This document shows positions 10,501-62,100 of a stretch of 64,000 nucleotides of DNA, piece after piece. The stretch is from Daucus carota subsp. sativus. Lineage: Eukaryota > Streptophyta > Magnoliopsida > Apiales > Apiaceae. Positions within the stretch are counted from its first letter, which is position 1. Each line of letters begins with the position of its first letter. The stretch spans positions 28,036,517-28,100,516 of the forward strand of contig NC_030387.2 in the NCBI RefSeq assembly GCF_001625215.2. The letters are read 5' to 3'. The notes under the pieces were generated by a model that was not told the origin of the DNA, did no database searches, and worked only from the letters and a program-made list of their open reading frames with translations. The position numbers and the translations under genes are program-made.

Positions 10501-13500
10501 ACCCCGATAAGTATCTAAATTCAGGGCATATTCGGGCTTATGCCTTATAGGCCTAAACACATTTTCTTAGCGCAACTCCAAGGCAGTGCACCTGTTAGCT
10601 ATATTACTACAGCTGGCATATAATATTAATATTTATACCTATCATCAGCCATATCTCTCCCTCCAAGTCTCCAACCGCTCATCCCTGTTAGCTAAAATTT
10701 AGCTACTGAGTTTTCATCCGCTACTTGTGGCGATTACAATCTCGTCTTCTATATTTGTACACCTCATCTCCCGGTCAATTTCTCCTCTCCCGCTTCTTCT
10801 TTGTTTATCTCCGGCCGTATCAGTTCCTCCTGCAGAAGTATGAGATCGAGTTTTTCAGTATGTGTTTGTGTTGTGTTGGGTTGAAGAGGCCACCACCGTT
10901 GCTGTGTGGGTGGCGGAGTCGCGATCGGCTACGGAAGAGAGGGAGAGGAGATCGAGCAAGGGAGGGAGATGACAGATAAGAGGTAGGCGAGAGAGAGGGT
11001 GGCCTGAGAGAAATGCCGGAAAAACTGAGAGTTTGGCTTTGACTTCAACGAGTAAAAAACATGAGTCGATTGTTCACTCTAACAATTTAAAGGGGAGAGA
11101 ATGGTGATTATAAGGGTTTTGTAATTTCCTAACTAAAAGGAGAGGACATGACCTCAGACAAGAGTTCTTTGAGACACCCTTTAGAGTATCTGAAATTCCT
11201 TAGGTCTTTGAAAGCCAAATCTCAAGGAAATTGGTGTTAATAGGAGCCTGCATAAATGCAGTGATACACATTGGATTGAAGCAAGTTCAAGAAAATCAAA
11301 TGAAACACACTGATCATAGTTGACTTGAAGTAAAGATATCTAGATAGATCAAATATGGTTGTTCTAATAACTACAGAGGTATTACTCTGTGTTCTCAAAC
11401 TAATAATGTGATTCAACACATCTAGTTACTATACATAGATAGTAACACAGTAATATATTCTAATAACCACATAGTATAACCAGACATAGTATAATCAGAC
11501 GGCATTACTCTGTGTTCTCAAACTAATATCAATACATTCTATATTTTATATGTATTTTTTTGTTTAAAGTTATATCATTTTAAGTTTTGGCTCCCAACAC
11601 TAAAATTTATCACATATAGGATTTGGTTCACTTTTTTTGATACTCATAATATAATAGATGAATTCCAGGATTTCAGAGTTTAAAAGAATGTAGAACACAA
11701 TTTTTATTTGGGAAAACAGATTTGTTTACCATCCAACTTATTATTTATTTAGAAACCTACCACTGAACTATAATTTTTTTTTTTTTGTCACTAATATTAG
11801 GTTCGGATTTTTTTCCGTCACTAATGTTAGGTTCAGATTTATTTTTTTGTCACTAACGTTAGGTTTGGATTTAATTATTAACATTATGTTATTCTTTTTA
11901 GCATTATTAAAATATAGTGGTAGTCTGTAATATAATGGTGATCTGATATGTGTCTATATCTTTATATGTAGTACAGTCCTGGGTAGTTTATCTTGGAGGA
12001 CAAGAGTATGAATTTTTTTACTCACAAAGGAAATCTCAAAATTAAGTTATTAATCTATATTTTATAAGAGTGGGAACCTTAAAATACGTGCCAAGTAGTG
12101 GTAAAAGAACTATAAATTGATGAGATGGACGAAGGGAGTAATAATGACATAAATGAGTGGTAAAATCAGGAATAATTATAATTAGAATTCTAAAAATTCA
12201 TTAAATTGTCAATATGAAATCAATGACTTCAAACAATTTATCATCTACAATCAATTCTCAAGTAAAATTGAGTCAAGTGATACTATATTTTTGTGGAGCC
12301 TTAAAATAGTTTATAAAACTAAATTTTTTAGGTTATTAAAATGTGTGTTAAACTCTCGTATTTCAAGGTAAACTACCCAGGGGACATACAGATTTTTTTT
12401 TTTTTGTCAGGAAGGCAGGGGACATATAGATGACTATATATAATGCTATAGACACATATCATATCACCATAATATTGCAGACTACCACTATGTTTTTATA
12501 ATGCTTAAAAAAATAAAATATTGTGAATAATCAAATCAAAACATAACGTTAGTGACAAAAAAAATTCAACGTTTTTTTTTAAGGAAAAAAAACCAGCGTT
12601 AAATTTAAAGGTTGAATTTTATTCGGAAAAAATAAAATAAAATAATTTTTGAAACTAAATTTTTTAGGAGCCTCAAAATGAGTGTTCAACTCTCGTCCTC
12701 CAAGTTAAACTACCTAGGACAAATATGTACTCCCTCTGTCCCTCTCATTTCTTTTACAGTTACTATTTTGAGATGTCCCTCTCATTTCTTTACGTTACTA
12801 TAAGTAGTAAGTTTTTCTCATCATTACACCCACTATCTTCCCCTACTATCTCATATTTAACAATAAAAACTACTATTACACTCACTACTTTCCTCCACTA
12901 TCTCAAATCTATTATTAAATATTGATAGGTCCCACCACTTTACCCACTTTTCATCTAACTTTACTCATTTTTTATACATTGTCTTGGTCTCCGTGTCCCC
13001 CTCCAATGTAAACAATTGAGAGGGACGAAGGGAGTAATAATACATATAAAGATATAGACACATATCAGATTACCATAATATTGCAGACTAACACTATATT
13101 TTAATAATGCTAAAAAAATAACATAGTGTTAATAATCAAATCCGAACCTAACGTTAGTGATAAAATATAATCCGAACCTAACATTAGTGACAAAAAAGAA
13201 AAAAGTTATAATTCAGTGGTAGGTTTCTAAATAAATAATAAGTTGGGTGGCAAAAAAATCTGTTTTCTCTTTTTATTTATATGCAAGTACCTTTATATTC
13301 TCGTTTCGTATCAAATATAGTTTAATATTATTTTGAATTGGCCCTGTCGGATTCAATTCTGGCTTCGTCCATGAATATAATCACACCCAAGCCACCATCG
13401 GAGCATCTAGTAAGCGGCATTGGGGACATTAAAAATTTTAGAAAAATACAGAAGAGTTTCGAAAAGACCTTGGCTTTAGGAATAGCTTCTTTCTCCTCGC

Positions 13501-13776
13501 GCAAGCGATCTTTAATTTGGTGAACCTGAAGCTCCATTGCCTTGACTAAACTATCAATTGCCGATAAATCAGGGAGACTGCTAGTTGGATACACTGTGGA
13601 TAGAAGAGATTACATTGGTAACGAGTATCTGAAACAGAAATGAATGTTGAGAAATGAATAAGTGAGAATTTACTGTTGCGAGCGATGACGAGTTGTTGAA
13701 GCTCGGAAATGCGAGTGTTGAAACCGGAGATTATCGAGTCCAGTGATGCTCCTGCGCACTCTTTTTTGCCTTCCAT
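7524..13776 (-). CDS. SKA1: Spindle and kinetochore-associated protein 1 homolog
   Basis: Plant SKA1 (formerly DUF1395), a subunit of the Ska complex that couples kinetochores to spindle microtubules in mitosis. Exons in gene order: 13776-13674, 13593-13469, 10341-10229, 10142-10070, 9560-9493, 9048-8943, 8845-8816, 8575-8462, 7598-7524; 807 nt, 268 aa, close to the usual plant length of about 270. The N-terminal helical part contains LDSIISGFNTRISELQQLV and LPDLSAIDSLVKAMELQVHQ. The middle has KGRGPPPLWYI and YMKGRLTLEKVNAAISDMA. The C-terminal winged-helix microtubule-binding domain includes AVKGKHFFLETDIKGP and ends LRHLGRITESRIGHHRVIV. All phases join without stops. Exon 7 is only 30 nt and the donor of exon 6 (AAG/GTTGCT) is weak. 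Intron 2 (3.1 kb) is swollen by transposons. Confidence 0.93.
10560..11100. other. unexplained GC-richer island in SKA1 intron 2
   Basis: Most of this intron is AT-rich, but 10725-11000 is GC-richer, with purine/pyrimidine runs (CTCCCGGTC..., GAGAGGGAGAGGAGATCGAG) and no splice-compatible coding frame that I recognise. Short repeats of CTGTTAGCTA occur near 10590 and 10687. It may be a captured 5'-UTR-like sequence or the inside of an old transposon. Confidence 0.3.
11710..13269. mobile_element. Mutator-like element with long TIRs, in SKA1 intron 2
   Basis: The left end GGGAAAACAGATTTGTTTACC matches the complement of the right end (GAGAAAACAGATTTTTTTGCC). The inverted homology continues for about 280 bp on each side (AACCTACCACTGAA, repeated CACTAA-GTTAGGTT blocks, ATATGTGTCTATATC, CTGGGTAGTTTA). 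The 9-bp repeat TTTTTATTT flanks it exactly (11701-11709 and 13270-13278). The interior holds a further inverted copy of the subterminal part (about 12340-12560). No transposase frame is visible, so it is non-autonomous. The right arm is split by a Stowaway element at 12730-13034. Confidence 0.9.
12730..13034. mobile_element. Stowaway MITE nested in the Mutator-like element
   Basis: Ends CTCCCTCTGTCCCTCTCATT and, at the right, the complement of CTCCCTTCGTCCCTCTCA, flanked by TA (12728-12729, 13035-13036). Removing it and one TA restores the right TIR arm of the surrounding element (CCTAGGACAAATATG then ATACATATAAAG), so it inserted later. Confidence 0.9.
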
Positions 13777-14209
13777 TTTCTGATTATTTTCTTCTGGGCT
13801 TCGGAATGCGGGGAAGATGGGAAATGTTTTGGGAGCGGAGCGGGGGAATTAGATTTGATTTCTGATTTTCATAAAGCAAGGTACATTGTACAATGTGATT
13901 AACATTTTTCCTGATTAATTTTGAACATGTTCTAAGGTGGTGTGGTATAAAAGTTATTTTTCAAAATCTCCTTTTACATATTTTGAAAACAAAAGTTAAA
14001 ATAATAATTTTAATTATATGATAAATTGACAACATATTTTAAAATACGTGTGAATTTTTTTTGAAAATAAATAAAATAAAATATTTACATAAAATAAGCT
14101 TACTTTTCAGATATGTTTTAAATAGAAATTGTATAAAAATTATTTATATTATTCTTGATCTCATTTGAATATGTCAATCATATTATGATAGAATATGATT
14201 TGAATATAT

Positions 14210-14639: not shown

Positions 14640-15190
14640 TTCAGGTCACTTTCAGATTTTGTCTCAATAAATTTGATTGCGGATTGGGTCAGTTTTTGGA
14701 TCGTTTGGCTCAAGTCTCATATTGTCACCCCTGCTGAAACAGACTGAACTACATATTTAGCTGGATTTGGTTATTTGAGTCTTACTATGGATTGTCTCAA
14801 TAAATTGGATTGCGGATTGGGTCAGGTCTTGGGTCGTGTCTCATATTGTCACCCTGCTGAACTTCATATTTAGCTGGATTTGGTTATTTGAGTCTTGCTA
14901 TGGATTGATTTATTATATCAGTGAAACTCAATATCCTCATCAAACATTCAAGTAAGAACAACAAATCAGGTCCCTGATAGTCTAGAGGTTGTCAGATGGG
15001 ATTGCGGACTGGGTCAGGTTTTAAGTCAGTGTTGATATTACCACCCCTTACCTAAACTTCATAGTTAGCTTAGATTTGGTTATTTGGGACTTGCTATGGA
15101 TTGATTCATTATATCAAAGAAATTTAAAATCCTGATCAAACATTCAAGAAGAACAACAAATCAGGTCCCGATAGCTTAGAGGTTTCTGAA
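14640..15190. repeat. three tandem copies of a 120-215 bp unit
   Basis: Units begin near 14663, 14783 and 14997. They share GATTGCGGATTGGGTCAGG, TATTGTCACCCCTGCTGAA, TTAGCTGGATTTGGTTATTT, CTATGGATTGATT and (copies 2 and 3) TCAAACATTCAAG-AAGAACAACAAATCAGGTCCC. Non-coding. Copy 1 lacks the second half. Confidence 0.8.
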
Positions 15191-15239: not shown

Positions 15240-18200
15240 TGTATTATACGAACTAGCTTTTTTGGCCCGTGCTACGCACACGGGTATTGATTCTTTGATT
15301 TTTATCGACTTAATCTATTCTTTGCTTTAAAGAAAAAAACTTAATCTATACTTTATGTCGTGATTAACCCCAAATCTGGCGGGTAATCAGTGCAGTCAAA
15401 TTATTTATTATGAGTTTTAAATTATAGAATTTAAAATGTTTATTAGCATTTTGTCTCGTGCTACGCACACGTGTATGTTTTTTGTTTTTTTTATCGAGTT
15501 AACCTATACATTTTTATTAACAAACAGTATGATATGAGATATATGTTATGAAAGCAACGTACGTAAGAGTCAAAATACTCGAGTTTTGTTATTAGCGAAC
15601 AGTGCGTTGTAGATGTTAAAAATAATATATACAAATGTCGATTGAAAAAATAAAATCACGCAACAGAAATTATAACGACGCAGACTATATAAATCTTTGT
15701 ATTTAGAAATATATATAATTATTAACTTAACCTGATTATGCAGATTACAGAGTTTCCATCCATTCCTCAATTATAAAATTAAGGTGAATATGCTGATAAT
15801 AGAGTTTCCCCCCGTCCTTAATAAAAATTGATAAATATGTTAAGAAATAATTAACCTTAAAGTAATACATCAATTAGGGAATACATATGTATTCATAATT
15901 TAGTTACATTACTAAAATTATATAATGCTATAATTATTGCCTATATTGAAAATTGATACTAAGAGAATATACGTGATAAATATCTATAATAGAATAGATT
16001 CTGTATTGATTTTATAACGGAATAGATTTTTCATTAATATCATTACAATAACCAAATATTTAATATAATAATAATATTTCATGTTTGGAATAAAAATTTA
16101 TATGTTCATGAATCTATGATCAAATCATTATTTGTATAGTTAAAATAATAAAAAAATATTCGATAATTGTTTTTAAAACATTTATAAAAGATATGAAAAA
16201 TAGTAATGACTATATAATTAAAATTTCTCGGCGTCGCCTAAATAAAACAACAAAAACTATAATAAACTATATGTAAAAATTTTATTGTTTACTTATTTAA
16301 ATGAAAATTTTCTAATTTATGAAAAATTTATTTAAATAAAAATAAACATGTAGCATTTTCGCCCGTGCTACGCACACGGGTATGATTTTTTTTTATCTAG
16401 TTAAACAATAAATTTTTTATTAACAAACAGTATGATATGAGATATAAGTTATGAAAACTAACGTATGTAATATTCAAAATACTCGAGTTATGTTATTGAC
16501 GATCAATACGTTGCAAATGTTAAAAATAATATATACGAATGTCAATTTAAAAAAAAAATCACACAACGGAAATTATGACGACACGGGCTATATAAATCTT
16601 TGAATTTAGAAACATAAATAATTATAAACTTAACCTGATTATACGTATTATAAAACTTCCATCCATTCCTTAATTATAGAATTAAGGTGAATATGTTGAG
16701 AAATAATTAGCCTTAAAGTAATACATTAATAAAGGAATACATATGTAGTCATAATTCAGTTACATTACTAAAACTATACATATGCTATAATTATTGCCTA
16801 TTGAAAATTGATAATAAGAGGATATACATCATAAATATCTACAATGGAATAGATTCTGCATTGATTTTATAACAGAATAGATTTTTCATTACTATCATTA
16901 ATATAACCAAATATTTAATATAATAATATTTCGTGTTTGGAATATAAATTTATATCTTCATGGATCTATGATCAAATCATTATTTGTATAGTTAAAATAA
17001 TAAAAAAATATTCGGTAATTGTTTCTAAAATATTTATAAAAGACATAAAAATAGTAATGACTATAAAATTAAAATTTCTTGGCGATGCCTCGAATCTTAA
17101 ATAAAATAACAAAAAATATAATAAATTATATGTAAAAATTTTATTGTTAAGTTATTTAAATGAAAATTTGCTCAATTACGAAAAATTTATTTATATAAAA
17201 ATATACTCGTAGCATTTTGGCCCTTGCTACGCGCACGAGTATGATTTTTTGTTTTTTTTATCTAGTTGAACTATACATTTTTTATTAACAAACAGTATAA
17301 TATGAGATATAAGTTATGAAAGGCAACGTATGTAAGAGTCAAAATACTCGAGTTATGTTATTGACGATCAGTACGTTGTAGATGTTAAAGATAATATATA
17401 CAAATATCGATTGAAAAAAAATAAACTCATGCAACAAAAATTATGAGGACGCGGACTATATAAATCTTTGTATTTAGAACATAAATAATTATAAACACTT
17501 AACCTGATTATGCGTATTATAATTCTTCCATCCATACTTCATTATAAAATTAAGGTGAATATGCAAATGATAGAGTATTCTCCCTTCCTTAATAAAAATT
17601 GATAAATAAGTTAAGAAATAATTAACCTTAAGGTAATACATCAATAAAGGAATACATATGTAGTCATAATTCAGTTATATTACTAAAATTATATGCTACG
17701 ATTATTGCCTGTAATGAAAATTGATAATAAGAAGAGATATACGCGATAAACATCTATAATGGAATAGATTCTGTATTGATTTTATACCGGAATAGATTTT
17801 TAATTAGTGTCATTAATATAAATAAATATTTTATATAATAATAATAATTCATGTTTGGAATAAAAATTTATAATTTCATGGATCTATTATCGAATCATTA
17901 TTTGTATAGTTAAATAATCAAAAATATTAGGTAATATGTTCCAAAATATTTATAAAAGATATGAAAATAGTAATGATTGTATAATTAAAATTTCTTGGTG
18001 TCGTCTAAAGGCGACGCCTCGAATGTTAAATAAAATAATAAAAAATATAATAAACTATATGTAAAATTTTTATTGTGAAGTTATTTAAATAAAAATATGC
18101 TCATTTATGAAATTTTTATTTAAATAAAAATATACTCGTAGCATTTTTGCCCGTGCTACGCACACGGATATAATTTTTTGTTTTTTAATCTAGTTAAACT

Positions 18201-20540
18201 ATACATTTTTTATTAATAAACAATATGATATAAGATATAAGTTATGAAAGACAACGTATGTAAGAGTCAAAATACTCGAGTTATGTTATTGACGATCAGT
18301 GCGTTGTCGATGTTAAGCATAATATATACGAATGTCGATTAAAAAAAATAAAATCACGCAACAAAAATTACAATGACGCAGACGATATAAATCTTGTGTT
18401 TAGAAACATAAATGATTATAAACTTAACCTGATTATGCGTATCATAAAGTTTCCATCCATACCTTAATTATAAAATTAAGGTGAATATGCAAATGATAGA
18501 GTTTCCTCCCTTCCTTAATAAAAATTGATCAATAGGTTAAAAAATAAATAACCTTAAGGTAATACATCAATAAAGAAATACATATGTAGTCATCATTCAG
18601 TTAGATTACTACAATTATATGCTACGATTATTGCTTATATTGAAAATTGATAATAAAAAGATATACGTGATAAATATTTATAATGGAATAGATTCTGTAT
18701 TGATTTTATAACGGAATAGATTTTTAATTAGTATCATTGATATAATCAAATATTTAATATAATAATAATATTTCATGTTTGGAATAAAAATTTATAACTT
18801 TATGGATCTATTATCAAATCATTATCTGTATTGTTAAATAATCAAAAATATCAGGTATTATTTTCTAAAATATTTATAAAAGACACCAAAATAATAACGA
18901 CTACAGAATTAAAATTTCTCGACGTCGCCTAACGGCGACTCCTCGAATCTTAAATAAAATAACAAAAAATTATAGTACACCGTATGTAAAATTTTTTATT
19001 GTCAAGTTATTTAAATAAAAATATGCTCCTTTATCAAATTTTTATTTCAATAAAAATATGTTCATAGCATTTTGGCCCGTGCTATGCACAAGGGTATGAT
19101 TTTTTGATTTTTTTTATGTAGTTAAACTATACATTTTTTTATTGACAAACGGTATGATATGAGATATAAGTTCAGAAAGGCAGTCAAAATACCCGAGTTA
19201 TGTTATTGGCGATCAATACGCTGTAGATGTTAAAAGGTAATATATACGAATGTCGAATGAATAAAATAAAGTCACACAACAGAAATTATAACGACGCGTA
19301 CTATATAAATTTTTGTATTTTGAAACATAAATAACAATAAACTTAACCCAGTTATGCAAGTTATAAAGCTTCCTTCCATTCCTTAATTATAAAATTATAG
19401 TGAATATGCTGCTGATAGAGTTTCCTCCTGTCCTTAATAAAAATTGATAAATATTTATAACGGGATATATTTTTCATTAATATCATTAATATAATCAAAT
19501 ATTTGATATAATAATAGTATTTCATGTTTGGAATAAAAATCTATAAGTTTATGGATATATTGTTAAATCATTATTTGTATAGTTAAAATAATAATAAAAT
19601 ATTAAGTAATTTTTATCTAAAATATTTATAAAAAAACATGAAAATAGTAATGATTATATAATTAAAGTTTCTCGGCGTCGCCTAACGGCGATGCCTCATA
19701 CCTTAAATAAAATAGCAAAAAATAATAATAAACTGTATGCAAAGAATTTTATTGTTAAGTTATTTGAATAAAACGATGCTCATCTATCAAATTTTAATTC
19801 AAATAAAAAAATGCTCATAGCATTTTAGCCCGTGCTACGTACACAGATAGGATTTTTTTGTTTTTTTTTCCACTTAAGTTATACATTTTTTTATTAACAA
19901 ACAGTATGATATGAGATATAAGTTATGAAAGACAACGTAATAGATTTTTCATTAGTATCATTAATTAAAGTGAATATGCTGATGATAGAGTTTCCTCCCG
20001 TCCTTAGTAAAAATTGATAAACATGTTAAAAAATAATTAACCTTGAAGGAATAATCAATAAAGAAATACATGTGTGATTTAAAAAGAAAAAAGAAATACA
20101 TATGTAATCATAATTGAGTTACATTACCAAAATTATATGCTACAATTATTGTCTATATTAGAAATTGACAATAAGAATATATACGTCATAAATATCAATA
20201 ATGGAATAGATTCTGTATCGATTTTATAACGGAACAGATTTTTCATTAGTATCATTAATATAACCAAATTTTAATATAATAATAATAATAATTTATGTTT
20301 GGAATAAAAATTTATAAGTTTATGGATCAAAGACATGAAAATAGTAATGACTATATAATTAAAATTTCTCATTGTCGCCTAATGGCAACACCTCGTATCT
20401 TGAATAGAATAACAAAAAATTATAATAAACCGCATGTAAAAAATTTTATTGTTAATTTATTTAAATAAAAATATGCTCATTTATTACCACATGAAAATTA
20501 TTTAAGCATTTTGGCTCGTGCTACACACACAGGTATGATA
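15240..20540. repeat. tandem array of 0.7-0.93 kb AT-rich units with GC-rich hairpins
   Basis: Eight occurrences of CCCGTGCTACGCACACGGG or variants lie at 15266, 15455, 16362, 17221, 18150, 19076, 19829 and 20515. From the second onward the spacing is 907, 859, 929, 926, 753 and 686 bp. Each unit then repeats the same order: T-rich run with (in three units) CTAG, TATGATATGAGATATAAGTT, AATACTCGAGTTATGTTATT, ATTATAACGACGCG-ACTATA, GGAATAGATTCTGTATTGAT, then a second hairpin with arms GGCGTCGCC and GGCGACGCC (clearest at 18920-18945 and 19674-19695), about 140 bp before the next first hairpin. Apart from these hairpins the unit is very AT-rich. No gene is present. It may be a satellite or a tandem array of non-autonomous Helitron-like units. 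Confidence 0.92.
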
Positions 20541-20559
20541 CAGGTATGAAAAAAAATGC

Positions 20560-21640
20560 TCTATTAATAATGAAATTATAACAAAAATTCTTGATCTGGA
20601 AATTGAATGTAATGAACATGAAAACTGTATAAATTAAACGAAAAAGTATTGTTGTAGTAATAAATGTCAAAATCTGTGGAAATCAAATGAAGTTTGACTT
20701 TCTATTCGCATATAAGCTATTACAGTCCAGATTCATGTATCGAAAATTTGTAAAACCGAGTGTATGAATACTTCCTTATATATCAAGAGCTGAAATTATT
20801 GAATGAGAAAAGACTCCATTAATTTGAATTTATAACAAAAAGTTTTGATTTGAAAATTAAATATAGTGTATATGTAAACCACCACATTTTATACAAAAAT
20901 GGATTGTAATAATAAATGCCAAAATTATTGAAAATCAAATAAAATTTGACTATTTTTCCTTATTTACATATAAGTTATAGCAGGCTAGATTCATGTATCT
21001 GAAAATTTTAAAAGTCTAATATATGGAAACTTCTTTATCAAGAGTTAAAATTGTGAAGTGAAAAAAAAAATACTCAATTAATCAGAAATTAAAACAAAAA
21101 GTCCATCTGAAAATTGAATATAGTAAATATGAAAACTGCACAAATTATACGAAAAAGTTTTATAATATTAAATGCTAAAAAAAGTGGAAATCAAATTATG
21201 TTTGACTACGTTTCCTTTTTTGCTATGAATTATAGCAGTCTATATCCAAAGTCTTGATTTGAAAATTAAATGTATTGAATATGGAAACCAATATATATTA
21301 TTTGAAAATCAAATAAAGTTTGACTTCCATATTTGCATATGAGCTATAACAGTCTAGATCTATGTGTCCGAATATTTAAAAATCTAATATATAAAAACTT
21401 TCTTATCGAGAGCTAAAATTGTGAAGTGAAAAAGTACTCCATTAATTTGAAATTATAACAAAAGGTCTAGATTTGAAAATTGAATATAGTGAATATGGAA
21501 ACCACTACATATTATACAAAAAAGAATTAATGCCAAAATCATCGAAAATCAAATATATTTTGACTACATTTCCTTATACACATATGAGTTATAGTAGGCT
21601 AGATTCATGTATCTGGACGAAAATTGTGTCATATTCATTC
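20560..21640. repeat. second tandem array, about five 150-260 bp units
   Basis: Units with the shared order CTCCATTAATTTGAAATTAT, AACAAAAAGT-TTGATTTG, AAAATTGAATATAGTGAATA, TGCCAAAATCATCGAAAATC, AAATAAAGTTTGACTA, TTCATGTATCTGAAAA and CTTTATCAAGAGCTAAAATT recur near 20560, 20810, 21070, 21250 (shortened) and 21430. The array directly abuts the last unit of the hairpin array and is unrelated to it in sequence. Confidence 0.82.
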
Positions 21641-23473
21641 TCGGTGTCTCTTGTCAAAATACAATGACACGCAATAAGAAGTAAACAAAAAGCCTTGATC
21701 AGATGTTGAGAAAAAGTGAATATAAATCTTCACACGGTGAGCATCCGATAGTGGCCTGGACGAATTATCTCTTTTCAGCAGCTGCAAGGAAAACTCAATC
21801 ATAAAAAAAGGATCAATAAATGCATTAGTGGACATATATGCATCATAATCACTATCAATACGAAAGGAAATTATGCAAAAATAATGTCAAAAAAATTAAT
21901 TACAAAATATAATGTCATCTATACAATATAAAAAAACTTAAAAACTGGAACAAAAATATAAAAAATAGAACATACACCAATGCTAAGCCACAATCCCATA
22001 TGTGGGAGTCGTATACTTTCAAAAAAGGCCTCTCCAGCTTTCCAAACTTTCACCCAATAACTATCTTAATCCTATATTAGGTGAATCATATGAGCTCCCC
22101 ACATGAGAATACCTATTAATTAACAACAGACACAAACTTATTACAAATTGTTGTATATCACACTAATGATTCTATATGAAGACGTTAACGACAATACGAT
22201 CGCGTCCAAGACTTTTGAGGAACCAAGACCAAGAGTACTGTATCTTGAAAATGAATGCGTATGAAAACTTTACTCTAGTGCGGAAATCAATTACCTGATG
22301 CATGTGCTTTCTTTTGATTCTTGGAAATTGTCTCAACACTTTTACCACGATCCATGTCCATTTCTTTTCACACCTGCAGAAACAAAATTTTACGATTATA
22401 ATCGAGGATTTCGATACTGCAACATTATCATCAAAAGGATTGCAAAACCTGTTGACGACGTTGAATCCGTCTTCATGCTAAAAAAACACGACCACTGTTA
22501 TCACTGCAATATAAAATAAATGTTACTACCATACACTCTACAAATCGAGAGAGAAAAAAAATGATCAAATGATTACAGATGCAAGTAGATAATAAGAATT
22601 TCGAATTTTAAATAAAAAATAGCAGAGAGCATAATGGAGGAGGAAGAGATTGATTTAGATAAATAAGCACGGATTTGTTATGATTAATTATCATGTTTGA
22701 ATTTGAAATCAATTAGACGTAGTAATGAGTGCCATGATTGGAGGAACCGAATTCAATGCTTTTTTCAAACTCTCATATGGTTGGAAGATGCTATGAGATC
22801 CAAAAAGCTCAATGAGTGGCTTGATCAATGGAACAGCAATAAATGCCACGCTCCTGATATGGCAGGAACTTGCTGCATGCCCAGTGGAAATCGGGTGGGT
22901 CGCATAAAAACCCGGAATATTCTTTCATAGTGTTAAGTTGAATGAGAAAACTGCCGGGTCGATCCGAAGCTTAATGAGTTGATCCAAGAGAAAGTGAAAT
23001 TACCAAAGCAGCCTTAAAAAATGACTCATGCTTTAAGAATTATATAGATATAAGTATCGACCGGAGGGCCTTGCATATGATTCTTCAATTACTACCGCGT
23101 ATAAGAGTATTCTGTTAAACTTTTGCCTATAATATTATAATCTTCAGCAAACAAATAAAATAGGATAGGCACACAGAAAACATCATATCTTATTTTCCTC
23201 GATTGAACAACACTACAACTAAATAACAAACTTTAGGGTACTCTTTTAAAGTACAAGAAAATCATTAGATGAGCTAATCACACAATGGATGCTTGGAGAG
23301 CTGCAACTATGCCAAATTACCAAAATACCTAACCATGTTTTTCTAAGTCAACAGTCCATGCATAGAATACAAATGAGGTATATTTTCAAAGTGTGTCTCG
23401 TCTTTAAATACTGAATTTTGCATGTAACTGGATGACTCCGAGGCGCATAAAGTTACAGATCCAATTTTCTTTG
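21640..23473. other. region without a confident gene; weak minus-strand exon signals
   Basis: A possible minus-strand exon at 22373-22295 has an acceptor (TTTCTGCAG), an ATG at 22361 with 22 codons (MDMDRGKSVETISKNQKK...) and a donor (CAG/GTAATTG). The next plausible acceptor (21782) leads to a stop after five codons, so only a 27-residue product could be drawn. I do not recognise it. The segment 22700-22930 is open in both directions but matches no family I know. The remainder is AT-rich and includes the 3' flank of VAP27. Confidence 0.2.
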
Positions 23474-26400
23474 TTACGTCTTCTTAATAAGATACCCCAA
23501 AAGTATGCCAACTAACCCAAACAGGATAACATACATAAGCGAGATACCACCACGGCTTCTCTTGCTTTCACGTTTTAGAAGTTCCTGCAGCACAGACATC
23601 CAACCAACAATTTTTATATGAAACCACCAACAATTCATGAAAAAGAAAAGAAGTTCAAACATATCCTCCGAAAATCAACAAGTAGTCAACAATGTATCCT
23701 TTCCCCACACCATCCTTGCATCATACTGGAACATCACATTTAAAAAATATCGACAAAGCAGCTTATTACGTCGAAAATATATAAATAAATGAATAGCAAG
23801 TTCTGAGATATATTCCATGAATTCTCTTCACCACAATGAGAGATATTACCCTTTTGTATGAGTCACCCATAGGGGAATATATTTCGAAATTTATGTCCCA
23901 GACAACAGCTGTTCATTTGTTAGATTCTCTTAACTCTTTACCCTCAAGACACGGGTCTCCTCACATTTTCTCCAGACCCCTTGTAAAGTTACGTAACAAT
24001 TGTCATATTAATAACAAAGAGAACATTGTCTATGCTGCCTATTTTGATAGCTAATACATTGCACTTTCAAGGAAAGAAATTTTCCAACAAACCAAAACTA
24101 GCCACTATAACAGGGCACTTGTTTTAAGTTTCAACAACCTGACAAAAGACGACCATGCTGGATGATTCTGGAATTCTTAGCAATTGTTGAAATTAGAGAG
24201 AGGCAATTGAATAAAATTCTCTTACCAGTTCTTGGTGAAGCCTTTTATTTTGTTGAATGGCAGAATTTTTCTCTTCAGACAGCTTAGAAATAAGCGCCCG
24301 TACCTGAAATTTAAAAGGACACTCTAATTAGAAGCCTTGTATTACAAAGACTAAAGTACCAATCATCAAGCAGACTTCTACATGCCACTAAGCACGTGAT
24401 ATCATATTTCATCAGATTGCTTATTTTCCCACCTGGACTTCTTTAGTAATTACGAGACAAAAAATTAGTGTTGCAATGCACACTTAATTGTCTGACATAT
24501 CAACTTCAAGCTTAAAGCCTCATAAGAGACATACTTTAACTCTGTCAACAGAGGATTTTAGTTATATGCTTCACTAAAATTACTGTTTTGTCCCGCTCAA
24601 GCCTACAGACTTGAGACTTCAACTTAACAACAAATATGAAGAAAAAAACAGGAAAATATTCACTTAATCTTTGTTAAACAAGTTACGTGATACAACAGCT
24701 TATCCTAAATACCTGATACTGTTAGTTTGTTTGCTTACAAGGGACACGTGGCAATATATACAAGGAATATTCTGCCTGCCTATATTAAGTTCTGAGCATA
24801 CAATTACGGCATTTCACTTTTGACCTCTAATCGTACAAATAACACTTAATAAATATGCTCAAGACTCAAGAGTAAAAGTATAAATGAATAAAAAGAATAA
24901 ATAAGCATTTAACTAATGACCATATATAAAAGTGTTCTGGCAAGAAAGAAATCTAGAAACTAACCTCTGGGGTATTCTCTTCAGGCTCAACATATGCTCT
25001 GGAGACCTGTGTGCATAATCAAAATAATGTCAACTATGCAAGGAAGGATAATATTCGATCACATAAAGAATTTTTCTTTAAAGATCAATACTGACAGTGT
25101 TGGAGTCAAGTGTATTAGCTGTTCCATTTTCTGATACCGAAGCCCTCGGCGAGGTACCTTCCTCAGATCCTTCCCTCACTGGTGATGGTGGTTGACGGGG
25201 TGCAACATAACTAACTCTTAGTTTGCACTCCTCAACCTGATTCCCTGACTCTTTACTAAACTGTAAGAAAGCAAACAGATATATACCAATTATATTATAA
25301 TTCAACCCAATATTATGGAATATGAAAACGAGTCCTTACTGTACAATTACCATTTCCGGAGTAATTTCCTTTGCAGATGCTCCTTCAAATTCTCCAGATG
25401 CAACTGCACTTTGGAGTAGGAACTTGTCCTTGCATTGCATGTCTGGAGGAGCCTCTTTTTGTGCTTGCATTGTAACTGATACACATTATACATTGCAATG
25501 AATATAAGTAATATAATCACCTAATTTTAAATTCAAAACACATAGCTATAATTATACGGGTATATTCTGTATTGAGAATATATAATTAAAGAAGCAAATT
25601 CATACAAATATACTCTAGTAAATTACTCCCACAGCAAGCCAATAAGCAGTTTTTTGTGCCTAAAACTCATCTTAGTTCAGTTCCCACAATACCAAATATG
25701 CTTATTGAAGTACGAAGTTTGGAAATTTTAAAACTAAAATTCTAAAAAACTACTCAGCTCATTTGGGCTTGCAGATATTTCAGGACATATATCCGAAATA
25801 GAAGGAAAAGAAGTAAAGACACAACCAATTCTGATCCATTCAAAACTCAGAAAAAATATTACTGATGAACAGAACTTTTGCTGAAAACCAAGAGGGAAAC
25901 AATCACAATATAACCAATTCCATACATTAAAGAACATAACCATATAGGAGTAGTATAACTAGTTGGGTCAAAACATTTTAAATATTAATTTAATAGGGTC
26001 AAAATTTGAAAACGATGTCAGAATTGTGATTATTAATAATTAAATTTAATATATAAGATAATTAGAATAATAAGTATGTGTTTTCAAATTATGATAAGTA
26101 ATTTAGCAAAAAAAGAAAACTAAAATATAATAAGTATGTAGATATGCCCCTGCATACAGCTAAAACAATAAAAAACTGAAAAAAAATAATTCAGACAAGA
26201 ACATGAACAACCACAATCCAGAAGTTCTCACTAGGTAAAAAGTCACTCTGAATTCAAGAAAAATCCAATGCACCTCAAATGACAGCTGAATAAACTGGTC
26301 TTGATTAAGCTTACATAAACTCAACACAAATCGGTTAGCCTAGTCCCATCATTTGCTACACTAGTAAAAATCCTAAATAAAAAGAACCAGAGCAGAAAGG

Positions 26401-29236: not shown

Positions 29237-38409
<9,173 letters not shown>

Positions 38410-50440: not shown

Positions 50441-50857
50441 GATATTAATAGTATGATTTTCGCATTGATTTTCTTGGTAACATAAATTAAACTAAGGCAA
50501 GTTGCTAGGAAATATATTTAACATATTATCACATTGATTTTCTTGGTACATAAATTGAGAGGTTATGCTGGCTTGTGCCTGTTTAAATGACTAAACAAAA
50601 ATGCACTAATTAGGTTGATGAAAACTGAGAAGTTAAAATAATGTAGATGTCATTTTAATCCTATATATATCACTGACATCTGAAAAATTGAAAGCAAGAC
50701 CAATTAAGCTTGGCTACTTTTATAGTTTTGTTGAAGGAGAACTGATAAAGTAAAGTACCAAGTCTATTCTATATTGGCGGGCCAATAGTTTCTAAGTGTT
50801 GCCTTGTTCAACTCCTCTTGGCCACTTTCTAACAACAGCACGCTACCAACTTCGAAC

Positions 50858-53570
50858 ATGCCTTCTTTAAACGTGGCGGTGATCGGGGCCGGGGTGGCCG
50901 GCCTGCTCGCAGGACGCGAGCTCCAGCGAGCAGGCCACAGAGTCACAATCTTCGAAAAACAGAACCAACTTGGAGGAACATGGGTTTATGATCCACGAAT
51001 AGAATCAGACCCTGTAGGCCTTGACCCCAGCAGAGAGATCATTCACTGCAGTCTTTACTCTTCACTAAGAACAAATTTTCCAAGACATCTGATGGGTTTC
51101 TCTGATTTTCCATTCACGAAAATATACGATGACTCTAGAACCTTTCCCTCACACGAGGAGGTACTCAAGTTCCTCAACGATTTTGCTCTGCATTTTGGGG
51201 TGGATAAGTTAATTCGGTTGAGTGCGGAAATTGTTGGAGTTGAGCTAAGGAATGATGAGTGGATTTTGGAGTCAAGAACGGGGGGATTGATAAGGGAGGA
51301 AGTTTTTGACGCTGTTGTGGTTTGCAATGGTCAATATACTGAGCCCAGGGTGGCCAATTTTCCAGGTTCTTATCTTTGTTTTTAATTTTATGAATTTGTT
51401 TACACTGTCTAGTTTTTTATTCCTTGAATTGAAAAGAGTCGAGATTAAATTTTATGAATTGAGCTTTTGTGGTTGAAATTTTTGGTGGATAAAACATACT
51501 GTAATAGCTTGCGCAATTTAAAGATAATTGTTGTTGAAATGCCAATGTTCTGTTTTCAACATATAGACTGAAATCTAAATAACTAATCGAACACATAGTA
51601 TGTGTCATATAAGTTAGGAGGTATCTTCCCCGCATAGTATATCGGTATCATTTTCCACAAATTGCCTGTGGAGTAATTTTAATCCAGGTCGATCATTCAT
51701 ATGCATCTTGAATCAAGCAGGGATTGAGAAGTGGCCAGGAAAGCAAATCCATAGCCACAACTACCGTGTTCCGGATCCATTTCGTGATCAGGTACATTCT
51801 GACCTGAGATTTCAAGTTCAAAGAATACAAGTTTGCCTAAAAGCATATTCTTTTAGCCAGTATAGGTCTTAGTAATTCTAGGTATTTATAATGGAGTATT
51901 TTGCAGATTGTAGTTGTGATCGGAGCTGGGCCAAGTGCTATGGATATATCAGGAGAAATTGCGGCAGTTGCCAAAGAAGTCCATATTTCAACAAGACCGT
52001 CTTCTCTCTTATCAAAATCGGTCATTTTTGAAAAATTCAAGCAGCATTCTGAGGTAAGTATGTGTGTAAACACAGTAGAGCCGTGCATTGTGAGGTAATT
52101 CACCGAATATCCTGAGAAAATAGATATATTTCACTTTTTTTTCTTTATAGCTTCTGTCATCAGTCACCATCTCTTCTATTGCCCTCAGATGGGCGAACTA
52201 GGTCCCATGGAGTACCCTAAGATGTTAATTGTTAACCTTTTCTGTAGAAATATTTTATGGCAAAAAAACAGATATTTACACGCTAAATTGAGATTGAGAA
52301 CACTCAAAGTCGTCCTATATATTTATAGTTTCAGTTTATTACATCTCCTGGTGACCTGGACGAACAATGTTTAATGATAACAGATAGACTATGTCGATGA
52401 AAGTGGTACAGTGGCTTTTGAGGATGGGTCTTCTGTTCAGGCAGATATAATATTTCATTGCACTGGGTAATATATTTTCCAGAAACTAGATCGTTTCATC
52501 TGCATTTTGTTCTACTATGGCATCATCTAAATTAAGAAAACCTCACTGAACTTGTTGCATCATTGATCATTATATTGGACTTATACACGGCATTAGCATA
52601 TGATAAATTATGCCTTTATGCATTTACAGGTACAAGTACAATTTTCCATTTCTTAAAACAAACAACATTGTCACTGTGGAGGATAACCGAGTTGGACCAT
52701 TGTACAAACATGTGTTCCCTCCTGAGATTGCCCCTAGGCTATCCTTCATTGGAATTCCTAATGCTGTAAGATCTTATCATTACTTCTGTCATTAAAGAAT
52801 TGAAACTTAGATGACATAAGAATAATCTAGTAACTGAGGCTAATTTTCCAAAAAGAGGCCATATCTTTAATTCTTGACTCTCCTTCTCCTAGTACTTCAG
52901 AAATAAGTCATCAGTTCTTGAATTTTAGCAAAATGCGAATTAGTTGCTTGATCAGTGATAGCATTCTGTTGTGGCATTGTTCACACATTATTGCGGAATA
53001 AGCTTAATTTACCAGTCCTGTATAGTGAAGAGGTGATTAGCTTTTCTAAGATTAACCGAGACCATTTATCACAGATAACTGTATTTCCAATGATGGAACT
53101 ACAAGCCAAGTGGATATCGCTTGTTTTATCAGGCCAGGTGCTTCTGCCATCCAAAGAGTCAATGTTGGCAGATACTGAAGCTTATTACAAATCAATGGAG
53201 CAATTTGGCAGCCCAATTCGTTTCACCCATTTTCTTTTCCCGACTAAGGTCATTTCATTTCCCTCAATTGTGTTGAGTTTCGACATGTCTAAATGTTTGT
53301 TTGGCCGTTGTTGGATTGTTACTTGTTAGTTTGCTAGTGCTACATTTATATTCGCAAACAGAGACGTTCCAGGCTCATAAATTCATTGGCCATGTTTTCC
53401 GAATTTTGTAGTTTGAGTACCTAGACTGGTTAGCTGATCAAGCCGGAGCACCACGGATTGATGAACTGACAAGAAGAATATTTGCACAAGTTTTTACAAA
53501 CATTTTCAGCTCTGAAGCTGATAAGTTCAGAGAATGGGATGTCGATAGCTGGATTGATACAGTCATGTAA
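50858..53570 (+). CDS. flavin-containing monooxygenase, FMO GS-OX-like, copy 1
   Basis: Class B flavoprotein that uses FAD, NADPH and O2 to oxygenate soft nucleophiles, with S-oxygenation typical for this plant clade. Exons: 50858-51365, 51721-51791, 51907-52053, 52384-52466, 52630-52765, 53075-53248, 53412-53570; 1278 nt, 425 aa. The start ATG gives MPSLNVAVIGAGVAG; an upstream in-frame TTG at 50804 was rejected. Seen: FAD-binding GAGVAG (residues 10-15) and LGGTW; the FMO motif region WPGKQIHSHNYR (around 175-186); NADPH-binding GAGPSA (near 200); and FHCTGYKYNFPFL and DNRVGPLYKHVF toward the C-terminus. It ends with REWDVDSW. First of three tandem copies. The substrate is unknown; a glucosinolate role is known only for Brassicales members. 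Confidence 0.93.
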
Positions 53571-54629: not shown

Positions 54630-54733
54630 TAAAGTAATAAAGTAAGGTTTACCAACCCTGCTTCGAGTTGCACATGTTCACATATATATCAAACTCCTCC
54701 TTGTCCTTAACACCATTTTGTCAACTTCTCAGC

Positions 54734-57700
54734 ATGCCTTGTTTGAACGTCGCGGTGATCGGAGCGGGCGTCGGCGGCTTGTGCGCCGGCCGCGAGCTTC
54801 AACGAGCAGGCCACCGAGTCACAATCTTCGAAAAGCAAAACCAACTCGGTGGAACATGGGTCTATGATCCACGAGTTGAGTCAGATCCCCTAAGCCTTGA
54901 CCCTAAAAGAGAGATCATTCACAGCAGCCTCTACGCTTCGCTCCGAACAAATTTTCCGAGACACGTGATGGGCTTTTCCGATTTCCCGTTTACGAAAATT
55001 TACGAAGATTCCAGGGCATTTCCGTCGCACGAGGAGGTGCTGAGGTTTTTGAACGATTTTGCGGAGCAGTTTGGGCTTGTTGAGTTGACTCGGTTGAACA
55101 CGGAAGTGGTCCGAGTTGAGCTGAAGGAGGATGAGTGGGTTGTTGAGTCAAGAATGGGCGAGTTGACTCGGGAGGAGGCTTTTGATGCGGTGGTTGTTTG
55201 CGTGGGGCATCACACTGAGCCCCGGGTGGCTAATTTTCCAGGTGCATTTTATTTTTTGTATGTTGTTATGTTAATTAAATATATTTTATGTTTGTAATTA
55301 TTTCGAGTTAAGTATTGATCAGGGAAAATGGTTTTAATATTTATAGTTCAAATATTAGAAAAAAAACATATAGTTTGAGAAAATGGGTCGAAAACATATT
55401 TTTGAAATGTAACTAAATATTACGTTAGTGGTGATTGTTTATTATTTTTTTTTTTTGAAAGAGATTTTATTTCATTAAGAAGAAACATCATACATAAGAG
55501 CCTCCACCACACATGAAGGAGGAGACGTAAATAAAATCTGGCAATAGGCTAAACAAGGATATCTAGCTAATTGGTGAGCAACCTTGTTTGCACTTTTCCG
55601 AATAAAATTAACTGAAGTAAAATGGAGTTGGCTAAGCTTCTGGCAGCAGCTGGCAATCACATCCCCCACTTCTAAGTAGTTGACATCTCCTTTTTGAATA
55701 GCTCTGGTCGTTAACTGAGAGTCTGTTTCGATGAAGTGGTGATTGTTTATTACTATTGAAAGAGCAAAACACAAAATATTTAGTATAACAAAATTTTGTT
55801 CACTAATAGGCGGGAATAAACCCATGAAAATAAAGCCAAAAGATTCAGAATTGTTAAGCTGAAAAAAGAATATTTGGTCAGGATCACACCTGTGTATATT
55901 TGATGGGGAAGAATCAAATTAAGGGCCAGAGAAGACAAAGGTGAAGTGACAAAATAATAACATATAAGATTCAAAGGCAGCTTTTGCCATCGTTTAGCAT
56001 TGGAGGAGAATCATATAGTGAAAGTTAAACATTTAACACAATTCATGCCGATGAAAAATAGGATAAAAAGTACAGTAATTCCTAAAAGCGACCTAATATA
56101 TATTAATGAATATGCTATATAAATATTCCAAATTTTCTATATTACTCTATCTGCATCCCACTTGTCCTATTAGTGATGCAATTCAAATTCTGAGTTTGGT
56201 AAAATAAATTCTGAGTTCCGAACTAAGCTGAATATATATTTGACTTTTGTGCTTAAAATTTATGACCCGCCCTAACTCAGACCTTCTAAATTTTTTTTGT
56301 TCGAATTCAAGCGACAATAATTAACTTGATTACACTACTAGATTGAAGGGTGAAGGTATTAGTAGTTAAGTCGGTGGAGACATGTGTGCATATGAGAAAA
56401 AATCGAGATTTTGATATATATATTGTTTTGAGATTAATTCCCTTGAACATATAATTTAATTTATCCATTTTTAACAAAAGCAGGCATTGAGAAATGGCCA
56501 GGAAAGCAAATCCATAGCCACAACTACCGTAATAATAAGCCATTTCGTGATCAGGTACATCATAATTTGGGTATAATTTCAATATTTCATAAAACACATT
56601 CATATGCTCGACAAAACTTTTTGTATAGTAATTTTACATAATTAAGAACATTCATTACCTGAAATTAGTTGTTAGTGGTTTTGGGAGTTTATTAATGGTA
56701 CCTCCTTACAGATTGTAGTTGTGATTGGAGCTGGACCTAGTGCTATGGATATATCCATAGAAATCGCAAAAGTTGCCAGAGAAGTTCATCTTTCCACGAG
56801 ATCGTCTTCTATGTTATCGAAATTGGCAATTTTTGCAAAACTGAATAAGCACCCTGAGGTATGTATTTGTTTTCACACCCCGACACACATTCTCTAACTG
56901 ACATTATGAGACTGTTCGAACAATATTACAAAATTACAAGTGATAAAATACTTATCTCATTGTATTATATTTAATTATATTAGCCTGAAGTTTTTTAACT
57001 GTATATATGCCAACAATATCAAGTGATGTCTTCTGGACAAATGATGTTTATTCTTAGTCTTCTTATAGATAGATTACGTCGATGAAAGTGGTAGAGTAGT
57101 TTTTGAGGACGGATCTTCAGTTGAGGCAGATATACTATTTCATTGCACTGGGTACGATCTTGTCCAAACGCCAAATTATTTTTCGTTTATGATTTAATGT
57201 CCTTTGCTATTATCTATATAAGAATATAAGCAATGTCATCATGCTACTGTACATATATACCACATTGACATTTAATATATCCTAGTTGTCTCTGTTTTTT
57301 TACAGCTACAGGTACAATTTTCCATTTCTTAAAACAAACAACATTGTAACTGTGGAAGATAACCGAGTTGGACCATTGTACAAACATGTGTTCCCTCCTG
57401 AGCTTGCCCCCAGGCTCTCCTTCATTGGAATCCCATATGCGGTTAGGTCTTATATAAATATTCGCTATGTTATAGAATTTAGAATTGTATAGTTATGCTA
57501 CAGCTTCCTGATTTTATAGAATTAGGATTGTATAGTTATGTTACAGCTTTCTGATGATTACTAACTATTTTTAGGATAATGTGTTTAAAGTAATACAATA
57601 CAATGTGCATTTTGTCACAAAACTATAATATGTGCTGTGGAATGGATAATATTTTCGCTGAACAAGCTTGCCTCAAAAAATTTAGCTATGCAAGAGGAAA

Positions 57701-59106: not shown

Positions 59107-62100
59107 ATGATTTTATCTCTCAAAATTGCGGTGATAGGAGCCGGGGTTGCCGGTTTAATAGCCGCTCGGGAGCTTAAAAGATCCGGCCACCAAGTCACCA
59201 TTTTCGAAAAATCGGGTCAAATAGGTGGAACATGGGCATACAATCCCCAAACCGAGTCCGACCCGTTAAGTCTCGACCCGAATAGAGAAATCATCCACAG
59301 TAGCCTCTACTCTTCGCTCCGAACTAACCACCCTCGACATCTTATGAGTTTTTCGGACTACCCATTTGCCAAATTCTACGGAGACCCGAGGAATTTTCCG
59401 GGTCATGAGGAGGTGTTGAAGTTTCTAAACGAGTTTTGGGTTGAGTTTGGACTCACTGAGTTGACTCGGTTGGGTACTGAAGTTGTCCGAGTTGAAGCGG
59501 TGGATGACTCGGGGTATTGTGAGTGGATTGTTGAGTCGAGAAAAGGCGAGTTGAGTGAGGTGGAAGTGTTTGATGGGGTTGTGATTTGTAATGGTCATCA
59601 TACTGTGCCGCGGGTGGCTGCGATCAGAGGTATTTTGTTTATTTCTTTGTTAAAGATTCTCATACATTTCGTAGTTATGGTGGGAACAAAAATTGCAGAT
59701 ATTATAATTTGAGAAATATTCTTGATTGTTATTAAATATTTGAAGCGAAGGCGTAGTACAGAAACCAAATGGTGTTCCTGTGTTAGTGATGCCACGGCGA
59801 ATTTAAGAACACTTTATCATTGATTTGATTTGGCCAAATCGAAGTAAAACGAGCAAATTAAATGAAACTAAAAATATATAGGTTTCTATAGCTCATTGTT
59901 TCATAGTTTTCACTCATGTGATAATATACTATCATAACAAATGAATTCCGCTATTAGGGAAAGCCGTAGCTCTTTGCTCCCAATGTACTTTCTTCCTGGA
60001 TAGAAACATTTTTCAACCTTAAATTGTAACCAAAGTAGTATTTTTGCTAAGATTATTTCGGTCTTCCACAATAATCTTTAATCCGGTGCTAGGCTTGCTG
60101 ACATCACTTTAACCAAAGATTTTCTTTGGGTGTATGTATTAGTTTTATGATTTCTGTTGCCAAATCTAACTACTTTTTGTAAGATTAACTTAATCTTATA
60201 GAAAGGCTTCCTAGCACTCTTCAAACCTAGCAAATTCACTTACTCTCCTGGAATAACATAGACATGTACTGAATCAGGTATAGGTCAATGGCCGCGAAAA
60301 CAAATTCATAGCCACAATTACCGTGTCCCAGAACCTTTTCACAATCAGGTATGCCTTTGCTAAAATTTACTTCATCAAGCAAGCACTCTGCCCTTAAGAA
60401 AGGGTTTCCAATTCTATATTTCGTTATCTGTTTGAGCTAAATATCATTGTAAAAGACAACCGTTGACAGATAGTGGTCATGATTGGAGCTGGACCTAGTG
60501 CCTATGATATATCTAGAGACATTGCAGAAGTTGCTAAAGAAGTTCATCTTTCTTCGAGAAATTCCACATGTGGTGGATTTTATAAATTGGTCAACCTTAG
60601 TAATGTAAGGCAGCACGCTGAGGTACGAACGTTATGATATATGCCTAAATTATCAATGCTCACAGTTTGGACATTATGTTATGCGCTACAGTTTAATTCA
60701 TTTTTGAAGTTATATAAGGCACTACAATTTGTAAGTCATATATTTGCAGGTAAGTGATATTATATGTGAAATTTCTTGCAGATCGATTATGTTGATGAAA
60801 GTGGTAGAGTAGCGTTTGTGGATGGATCTTCTGTTTGTGCTGATATCATATTTCATTGCACTGGGTATATATTTAATCTAATAACCGAAAGATCTTCTTC
60901 ATTATGCGACTTCAATCTACTATTGTTCTTTTGGTTGGATTTATAGAACTAAACTTTGTTATGAACCCCTGCAAACATAGTTTATAAATGCATTAGTTCG
61001 ATTAATCCCAGCCATGGCTCAGGAAGAAAACAGTAAATTCCTCCAAACAAGTGCAATTCTGAGAATTGAGCTGTCCAATTCTAAGCAAATGCTCTTTTTC
61101 TGAGTCCCTAAAACCAGTTTAACATCATTTCAGTGCTGTAATACATACCTCATGTGTTTGCATAAATTCCTTCTTGTCAACATATGTGCTGCAACATCCC
61201 CTTGATGTATTGTACTGTATAAATTTAACTTGGTGCTTTGAATGCATTTCTCTCTTTCTAGGTACAAGTTCAGTTTTCCATTTCTTAGAACTAATGGGAT
61301 CGTAACTGTGGATGATAATAGAGTTGGACCCTTGTACAAGCACGTCTTTTCTCCTGAGATTGGCTCCAGGCTCTCTTTTGTTGGAATCCCCTGCAACGTA
61401 AGGTTTAATATATGTATTCAGAATACATTCTTGTTATATGGGACTAAATCAGGGGTTGAATCATCAAAAAGCTGACAAGTTGCCAAATTAAAGTCTTTGA
61501 GTCTCTTGTTTTGGCACAGATTACATTATTCCCCATGATGGAATTACAATCCAAGTGGATATCGTGTGTTTTATCCAGCAAGGTGGTCCTACCGTCTAAA
61601 GAGGCAATGCTCGCTGATACCAACGAACACTACAGGTCGTTGGAGGAACGAGGGATCCCAAAACATAGTACTCACTCCCTTGCTACTACCGGGGTTCGTG
61701 CTTTTCTTCTTGGTAGCAGTTGCACTGCACATTGTTGCTTTATGTCCTCCGATATCTTCACTACACACAGTATACATACACGAGGTGATGAGGGCTAGCA
61801 GCTTCAGAGCTTCAGATGTACTGACTTTTTCTCTTTTTTTTTTGGTAATTTATACCATTCCTGCAGTTCCAATACCTGGACTGTCTAGCAAGTCAAGTAA
61901 AAGTTCAACCAGTTGAAGAAAGGTTAAAGAATATATACAAACAACTTGTTTCGGTGTTCTTCAGCTCCGAAGGAGACCAATTCAGGGAATGGGATGTAGA
62001 TAGTTGGGTGAATGGAAACCACTTGAAACTACTTGCAGCAAGTGAAAAACGTTCAGGCTCCAAATTGCTTGCAGCATTTGAGGAAAACGTCGGACATGAT

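Follow-up and report, generated by a model that had tools for sequence, protein, structure and literature searches.

A carrot tandem array that repeats Helitron-like 3′ ends

Helitron families are defined on 30 terminal bases, since the interiors of the elements differ (PMC13286980; papers cited here by PMC number are represented by excerpts of their text). A GC-rich hairpin is placed 10–15 nt from the 3′ end (PMC2267711), and the plant Helitron 3′ end is described as a hairpin of 16–20 nt, located 10–15 nt from the end, after which a T follows (PMC2267711, PMC13286980). A RepHel protein is expected of autonomous Helitrons only, and a non-autonomous element can do without it. Canonical Helitrons begin with TC behind an A, end in CTRR in front of a T of the host, and insert between A and T without duplicating their target. 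Xiong et al. (2016) reported rolling-circle arrays of plant Helitrons, which are summarised in PMC12628747, PMC6591975 and PMC7492417. A tRNA-Cys cluster of Arabidopsis overlaps annotated Helitrons; in a manual search every unit contained CTAG with T or C after it one or more times, and failed termination was proposed, while none of three Helitron finders made a reliable prediction that overlaps the tRNA genes (PMC10701932). Here we describe a tandem array of hairpin-bearing units in a 64,000-nt stretch of Daucus carota subsp. sativus DNA (NC_030387.2), hereafter the window, in which all positions below are counted. On balance, we favor the view that the array consists of decayed 3′ ends of non-autonomous Helitron-like elements and that the interval between such ends was amplified in place.

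Hairpin-bearing units and a shared 3′ module

When up to 3 mismatches were allowed, the 14-nt core of the hairpin was found 8 times in the window, whereas 100 shuffles gave 0.47 on average and never more than 3. All eight copies lie on the same strand, and the array, which lies in DNA of 21–25% GC, is tandem and head-to-tail. The eight copies and the tandem arrangement had both been recognized in an initial inspection of the letters (the sequence-only reading), which also counted seven units of 686–929 bp. Six such units were found, of 907, 859, 929, 926, 753 and 686 bp, with 82–90% ungapped identity among them. The first interval between hairpins is 189 bp long and has no more than its last ∼70 nt in common with the units. 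The copies are designated U1 to U8 as in Table 1.

The Helitron-like layout becomes apparent on the minus strand. At the left edge of the array, U1 carries a 19-nt hairpin located 13 nt from a CTAG end, within the canonical 10–15 nt of Helitron hairpins, and the CTAG is followed by T. The next copy, U2, has a hairpin with one broken pair and ends in CTAA-T. Because this hairpin size and spacing fit those of plant Helitrons, they support a plant Helitron origin. With simulated flanks on one strand, the chance per hairpin of a CTAG-T starting 2–13 nt away is ∼0.005, and that of any CTRR-T is ∼0.04. CTRR-T is present in both outer copies and in none of the 6 inner ones (Fisher p = 0.036, a test chosen post hoc). 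It is thus confined to the place where the array stops, that is, to copies that are not followed by another unit.

The sequence-only reading had also suggested a Helitron 3′ end, from plus-strand CTAGs close to the hairpins at 16362, 17221 and 18150. These CTAGs do occur, at 16, 22 and 21 nt, respectively, in 3 of the 8 copies. We reject them as ends because the alignment runs through the CTAG into the unit body and because the spacing is 16–22 nt. The suggestion holds for the minus strand, where the informative CTAG at the left edge had been overlooked.

What the copies have in common is a 3′ module consisting of the hairpin, 8–9 nt and GCTA. In U8, GCTT takes the place of GCTA, and in seven copies an A-rich lead of ∼40 nt stands before the hairpin. 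The module follows three different bodies: a second tandem array in U8, the unit body in U7 to U2, and a short unrelated stretch in U1. U1 scored 48.5 against the unit consensus, where the shuffle maximum was 22.5. Its first 110 nt, beyond the CTAA of U2, scored 16.0 (shuffle mean 17.9), and the flank past its CTAG scored 13.5 (shuffle mean 15.8). By the same kind of score no unit body lies upstream of U8 (18.5 vs. a mean of 20.7); the second array starts there instead. A profile built from the six long units, with U1 and U8 left out, detected the module of U1 (E 1e-9, ∼65 nt) and that of U8 (E 3.5e-5, 35 nt), both on the minus strand. A second profile, made from the last ∼75 nt of all eight copies, recovered its own eight members with E values of 9e-21 to 2e-9, and found no further copy in the window better than E = 4.5. 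A common 3′ end behind unlike bodies fits Helitrons, because Helitron families are defined on their termini.

Origin of the array and its alternatives

A Helitron origin of the array is quite probable on these grounds and, given such an origin, amplification in place is the likely course. At least two Helitrons with related 3′ ends would have lain head to tail, as has been documented for two maize elements. The interval between neighboring 3′ ends would then have been amplified in place, by unequal exchange or by template slippage between 3′ modules, after which substitutions would have eroded the units and deletions would have removed segments of them. The repeat unit extends from GCTA to GCTA and equals the interval between neighboring 3′ ends; exchange or slippage between two 3′ modules would yield such a unit, as observed. 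In the unit tree, U4 and U5 are grouped with support of 96.3/88, and U2 and U3 are split from the rest with 95.4/90. Distance between units correlates with their separation (Mantel r = 0.43), and 40 of 720 permutations gave a value as high. The tree thus lends weak support to growth in place, and a single burst would also be compatible with it.

Singleton changes among the units comprise 123 transitions and 75 transversions, and sites at which C or G is the major base change twice as often as A/T sites (0.42–0.43 vs. 0.20). Methylated, silent repeats would decay with such a substitution pattern. The array looks old and is probably inactive, and it is ordinary in giving no sign of function.

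Several observations weigh against a Helitron origin with amplification in place. The unit tree is close to a star, with internal branches of 0.005–0.020, terminal branches of 0.052–0.131 and support of 4.9/37 for the node joining U6 and U7. Informative sites conflict: of 24 gap-free sites, 4 favor U4+U5 and 3 favor U2+U3. The Mantel value itself is borderline. CTRR is absent from 6 of the 8 copies, which have CTAC (three), CTAT (two) or CTTA instead. The 159-nt lead of U1, scored whole and without the hairpin, reached 23.5 (shuffle mean 20.5, maximum 29.5), which is not significant; the hairpin and its 3′ side therefore carry much of the U1 match. In addition, the strand and edge tests were picked with the sequence already in view.

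Pattern scans belong on the same side. When CTRR-T was sought on both strands at 5–14 bases behind a perfect GC-rich stem of at least 6 pairs, this strict scan returned a single match in the window, at 15284–15252 on the minus strand. A site of this kind was present in 18 of 60 simulated windows (mean 0.33). We had considered the rarity of hairpin-CTAG-T in 64 kb as evidence and have dropped it in view of these simulations; the U1 site carries weight because it lies at the edge of similarity, not because it is rare. The looser 3′ rule of HelitronFinder (PMC2267711) gave 12 matches vs. 9.6 in simulated sequence; only 1 of the 12, again the U1 site, has a stem of at least 6, compared with 0.27 simulated.

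No 5′ end emerged either. None of the six units starts with TC, the nearest case being a TC at nt 10 of U7. Candidate 5′ ends with TC after A, according to the maize consensus excerpted from PMC2267711, numbered 40 on both strands (simulated mean 44), and another 5′ pattern occurred 6 times in the window vs. 4.2 in simulations; both numbers are at chance level. Helitron protein domains were absent from the 40 of 77 open reading frames (ORFs) of at least 55 aa that were searched, at 3.5–29 kb. As neither a 5′ TC nor, in the ORFs searched, a RepHel gene was found, we speak of Helitron-like 3′ ends and not of a Helitron.

Two individual 5′ candidates were also weighed. A TC-like start inside the second array (TCTAGCCTACTATAAC) is kept as a weak lead only. 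U1 could be viewed as a complete Helitron of ∼176 bp starting with TCTATAATTT after a T; by eye this start matches the 5′ consensus poorly, and the element is not claimed.

A possible, though rather unlikely, alternative is that the array is a rolling-circle concatemer. A circle with a truncated 5′ end would have carried a junction with the hairpin but without a CTRR cut site; replication would have passed each hairpin, and the inserted concatemer would end at the first real CTRR-T. Inner junctions of CTAC, CTAT and CTTA, with CTRR-T in the outer copies only, are as expected from this scheme, and so is the near-star tree. Helitron circles have been reported for Helraiser (PMC4778049) and wheat (PMC13286980), and tandem Helitron arrays for plants and bats (PMC5876387). 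However, some neighboring units are more alike than distant ones, and the junction of the second array with U8 is left unexplained. The sequence-only reading had pointed to rolling-circle elements as a source of such arrays; with many 3′ modules, TC starts in 0 of 6 units and some neighbor structure in the tree, this product is not shown here. It is decidedly doubtful that a runaway circle met a hairpin without CTRR at every turn, passed six hairpins and stopped at CTRR-T. If it did, the cut site and not the hairpin alone would set the Helitron end, and the locus would define a new, “3′-end-multiplied” class of Helitron array.

It is also unlikely that the array is an ordinary satellite-like tandem repeat, unrelated to Helitrons, with chance palindromes and a coincidental CTAG-T at its left edge. 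Most copies lacking CTRR, hairpins that are not conserved (see below), the want of a 5′ end, of a transposase in the ORFs searched and of dispersed copies in the window, and the frequency of hairpin plus CTRR-T in simulated windows are all compatible with such a repeat. It is opposed by the placement of hairpin-CTAG-T where similarity stops and by the occurrence of the 3′ module behind three unlike bodies.

The sequence-only reading had held that the hairpins are kept or co-vary in several units, and had rated a satellite with selected hairpins as an equal possibility. In the alignment of the six units, 11 of the 114 cells of the first hairpin are changed (0.096), whereas the median of 19-column windows is 0.073, and 82% of these windows change at or below the first-hairpin rate. 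Compared with G/C positions only (143/967) its rate is lower, although not significantly so (Fisher p = 0.16), and the hairpin cells include A/T positions, which change less than G/C. Double changes were not seen in the first hairpin (8 copies × 6 pairs). The second palindrome does lie where it had been placed, 140–155 bp before the next hairpin, but it is not intact: arms are perfect in none of the 6 units, damaged on both sides in 4, and reduced to a single arm in 2, the loss of an arm having been noted before. In the four two-armed units a double change affects 1 of 36 pairs (in U7) and G-T pairs account for 3 of 36. As the rate in the first hairpin is close to background, the data lend no support to selection on the hairpins. 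A satellite whose hairpins are selected, be it as signals for replication or for chromatin, is therefore very improbable, even though the first hairpin is recognizable in 8 of 8 copies and changes at a rate slightly below that of other G/C positions, and the second palindrome has its one double change and three G-T pairs.

Predicted DNA folds of the eight first hairpins gave z values of −3.2 to +0.7, with other pairing preferred in the copies at 17221 and 19076, and those of the six second palindromes gave −2.6 to −0.4. At 17195–17255 the minus-strand start of the next unit (GCTACGAGTATATTTTT) is complementary in part to the preceding hairpin, namely to its lead and its stem, and a larger fold that includes this start is the predicted minimum.

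Array features and their neighborhood

Table 1. Positions of the array, its units, hairpins and palindromes in the window.
Feature	Position	Strand	Description
Whole array	15253..20533	-	Eight Helitron-like 3′ modules in one orientation; six units of 686–929 bp and one terminal segment of ∼190 bp
Outermost Helitron-like 3′ end	15252..15284	-	Hairpin 15266–15284 CCCGTG-TGCGTAG-CACGGG, 9-nt spacer, CTAG 15256–15253, T 15252
Second outer 3′ end	15442..15473	-	Hairpin (15455), one of its six pairs broken; spacer of 8 nt; CTAA-T
U1, terminal segment	15253..15443	-	About the last 70 nt match the units; first 110 nt not above shuffles
U2	15444..16350	-	907 bp
U3	16351..17209	-	859 bp; hairpin 16362–16380, then CTAC
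U4	17210..18138	-	929 bp; hairpin 17221–17239, then CTAC
U5	18139..19064	-	926 bp; hairpin 18150–18168, then CTAC
U6	19065..19817	-	753 bp; hairpin 19076–19094, then CTAT
U7	19818..20503	-	686 bp; hairpin 19829–19847, then CTAT
U8, last 3′ module	20504..20541	-	∼35 nt; hairpin 20515–20533, then CTTA; joined to second array
Second palindrome, U2	16222..16230		Single arm
Second palindrome, U3	17081..17089		Single arm
Second palindrome, U4	17997..18018		Two arms, two substitutions; 7 Watson-Crick and 2 G-T of 9 pairs
Second palindrome, U5	18921..18942		Two arms, two substitutions; 7 of 9 pairs
Second palindrome, U6	19674..19695		Two arms, one substitution; 8 Watson-Crick and 1 G-T of 9 pairs
Second palindrome, U7	20371..20392		Two arms, five substitutions; 6 of 9 pairs, one a double change
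Second tandem array	20534..21731	-	Period of ∼250 bp; six profile matches, of which two are only partial; lies immediately upstream of U8

As shown in Table 1, the array is bordered on its right by the second tandem array, which is AT-rich and touches the eighth hairpin. Its left edge is adjoined by a repeat of ∼196 bp in two tandem copies (14804–15184).

By content the window looks like plant DNA. Pfam matches comprise pieces of copia-type retrotransposons, FMO-like regions and an LTP/hydrophobic-seed domain. Three regions that resemble the N-terminal part of FMO share one strand (50804–51385, 54668–55297 and 59107–59712) and perhaps form a local gene cluster. ORFs at 13331–13848 on the minus strand resemble the kinetochore protein SKA1, with a Pfam E value of 2.6e-6 that falls slightly short of the curated cut-off. 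Their likely start codon, placed by eye near 13776, is ∼1.5 kb downstream of the 3′ edge of the array, and the array may therefore lie in their upstream region. Coding pieces at 23477–24300 on the minus strand bear, by eye, some resemblance to the C-terminal part of a VAP27-type protein, namely its coiled coil and membrane anchor; the ORF at 23477–23674 has a weak, unrelated Pfam match only. A perfect (AT)n run of 187 bp occupies 35325–35511.

The window has no Rfam match at the gathering threshold and no tRNA. Exact-pattern scans of viral and prokaryote contigs returned 0 hits; these are not plant collections and are uninformative for a plant repeat. When the hairpin sequence was sought in the literature, only an 11-letter term matched, in two papers that are unrelated by title. 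Among the literature matches listed, judged by title and the start of the abstract, none describes an array with many Helitron 3′ ends.

Comparison with described Helitrons and Helitron arrays

End sequences are the main basis of the argument on how Helitrons stop and how they seed satellite arrays. For an array with many 3′ ends another route is called for: terminator modules could recombine with each other, or replication could run past a hairpin whose cut site is missing. The two differ in what they predict for relatives of the plant. The weight of the present case is modest, as it is one decayed locus.

The module resembles the 3′ ends of rice Mothra (PMC4683698) and wheat Xuan1 (PMC13286980), both of which have a GC-rich hairpin near a CTAG end; that of Mothra is 16 bp and lies 13 bp from the end, and the corresponding values for Xuan1 are 17 nt and 11 nt. 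Mothra also contains low-GC tandem repeats, in two blocs of which one is ∼20% GC, similar to the 21–25% found here. Both elements have a 5′ TC and, in the excerpts, a hairpin described only near the 3′ end, whereas in the carrot array the hairpin lies within the repeat unit and no 5′ end was found.

Helitron ends directly adjoining each other are shared with the two head-to-tail maize Helitrons. Those, however, are two unlike elements in which TC comes right after CTAG, and no unit was amplified. Small tandem units are also a property of the Arabidopsis tRNA-Cys cluster, where they are ∼420 bp long and 84–94% identical, but the units of that cluster carry tRNA genes (PMC10701932).

With the arrays of Xiong et al., as summarised in the excerpts cited above, the carrot array has in common the head-to-tail tandem arrangement of truncated, decayed Helitron copies. 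Many of those arrays are described as having multiple 5′ ends and a single 3′ end (PMC12628747) and as mostly centromeric; the carrot array has eight 3′ modules and no recognized 5′ end, and lies between apparent genes. Its unusual feature is thus that it repeats the 3′ end, the reverse of what is described for many published plant Helitron arrays.

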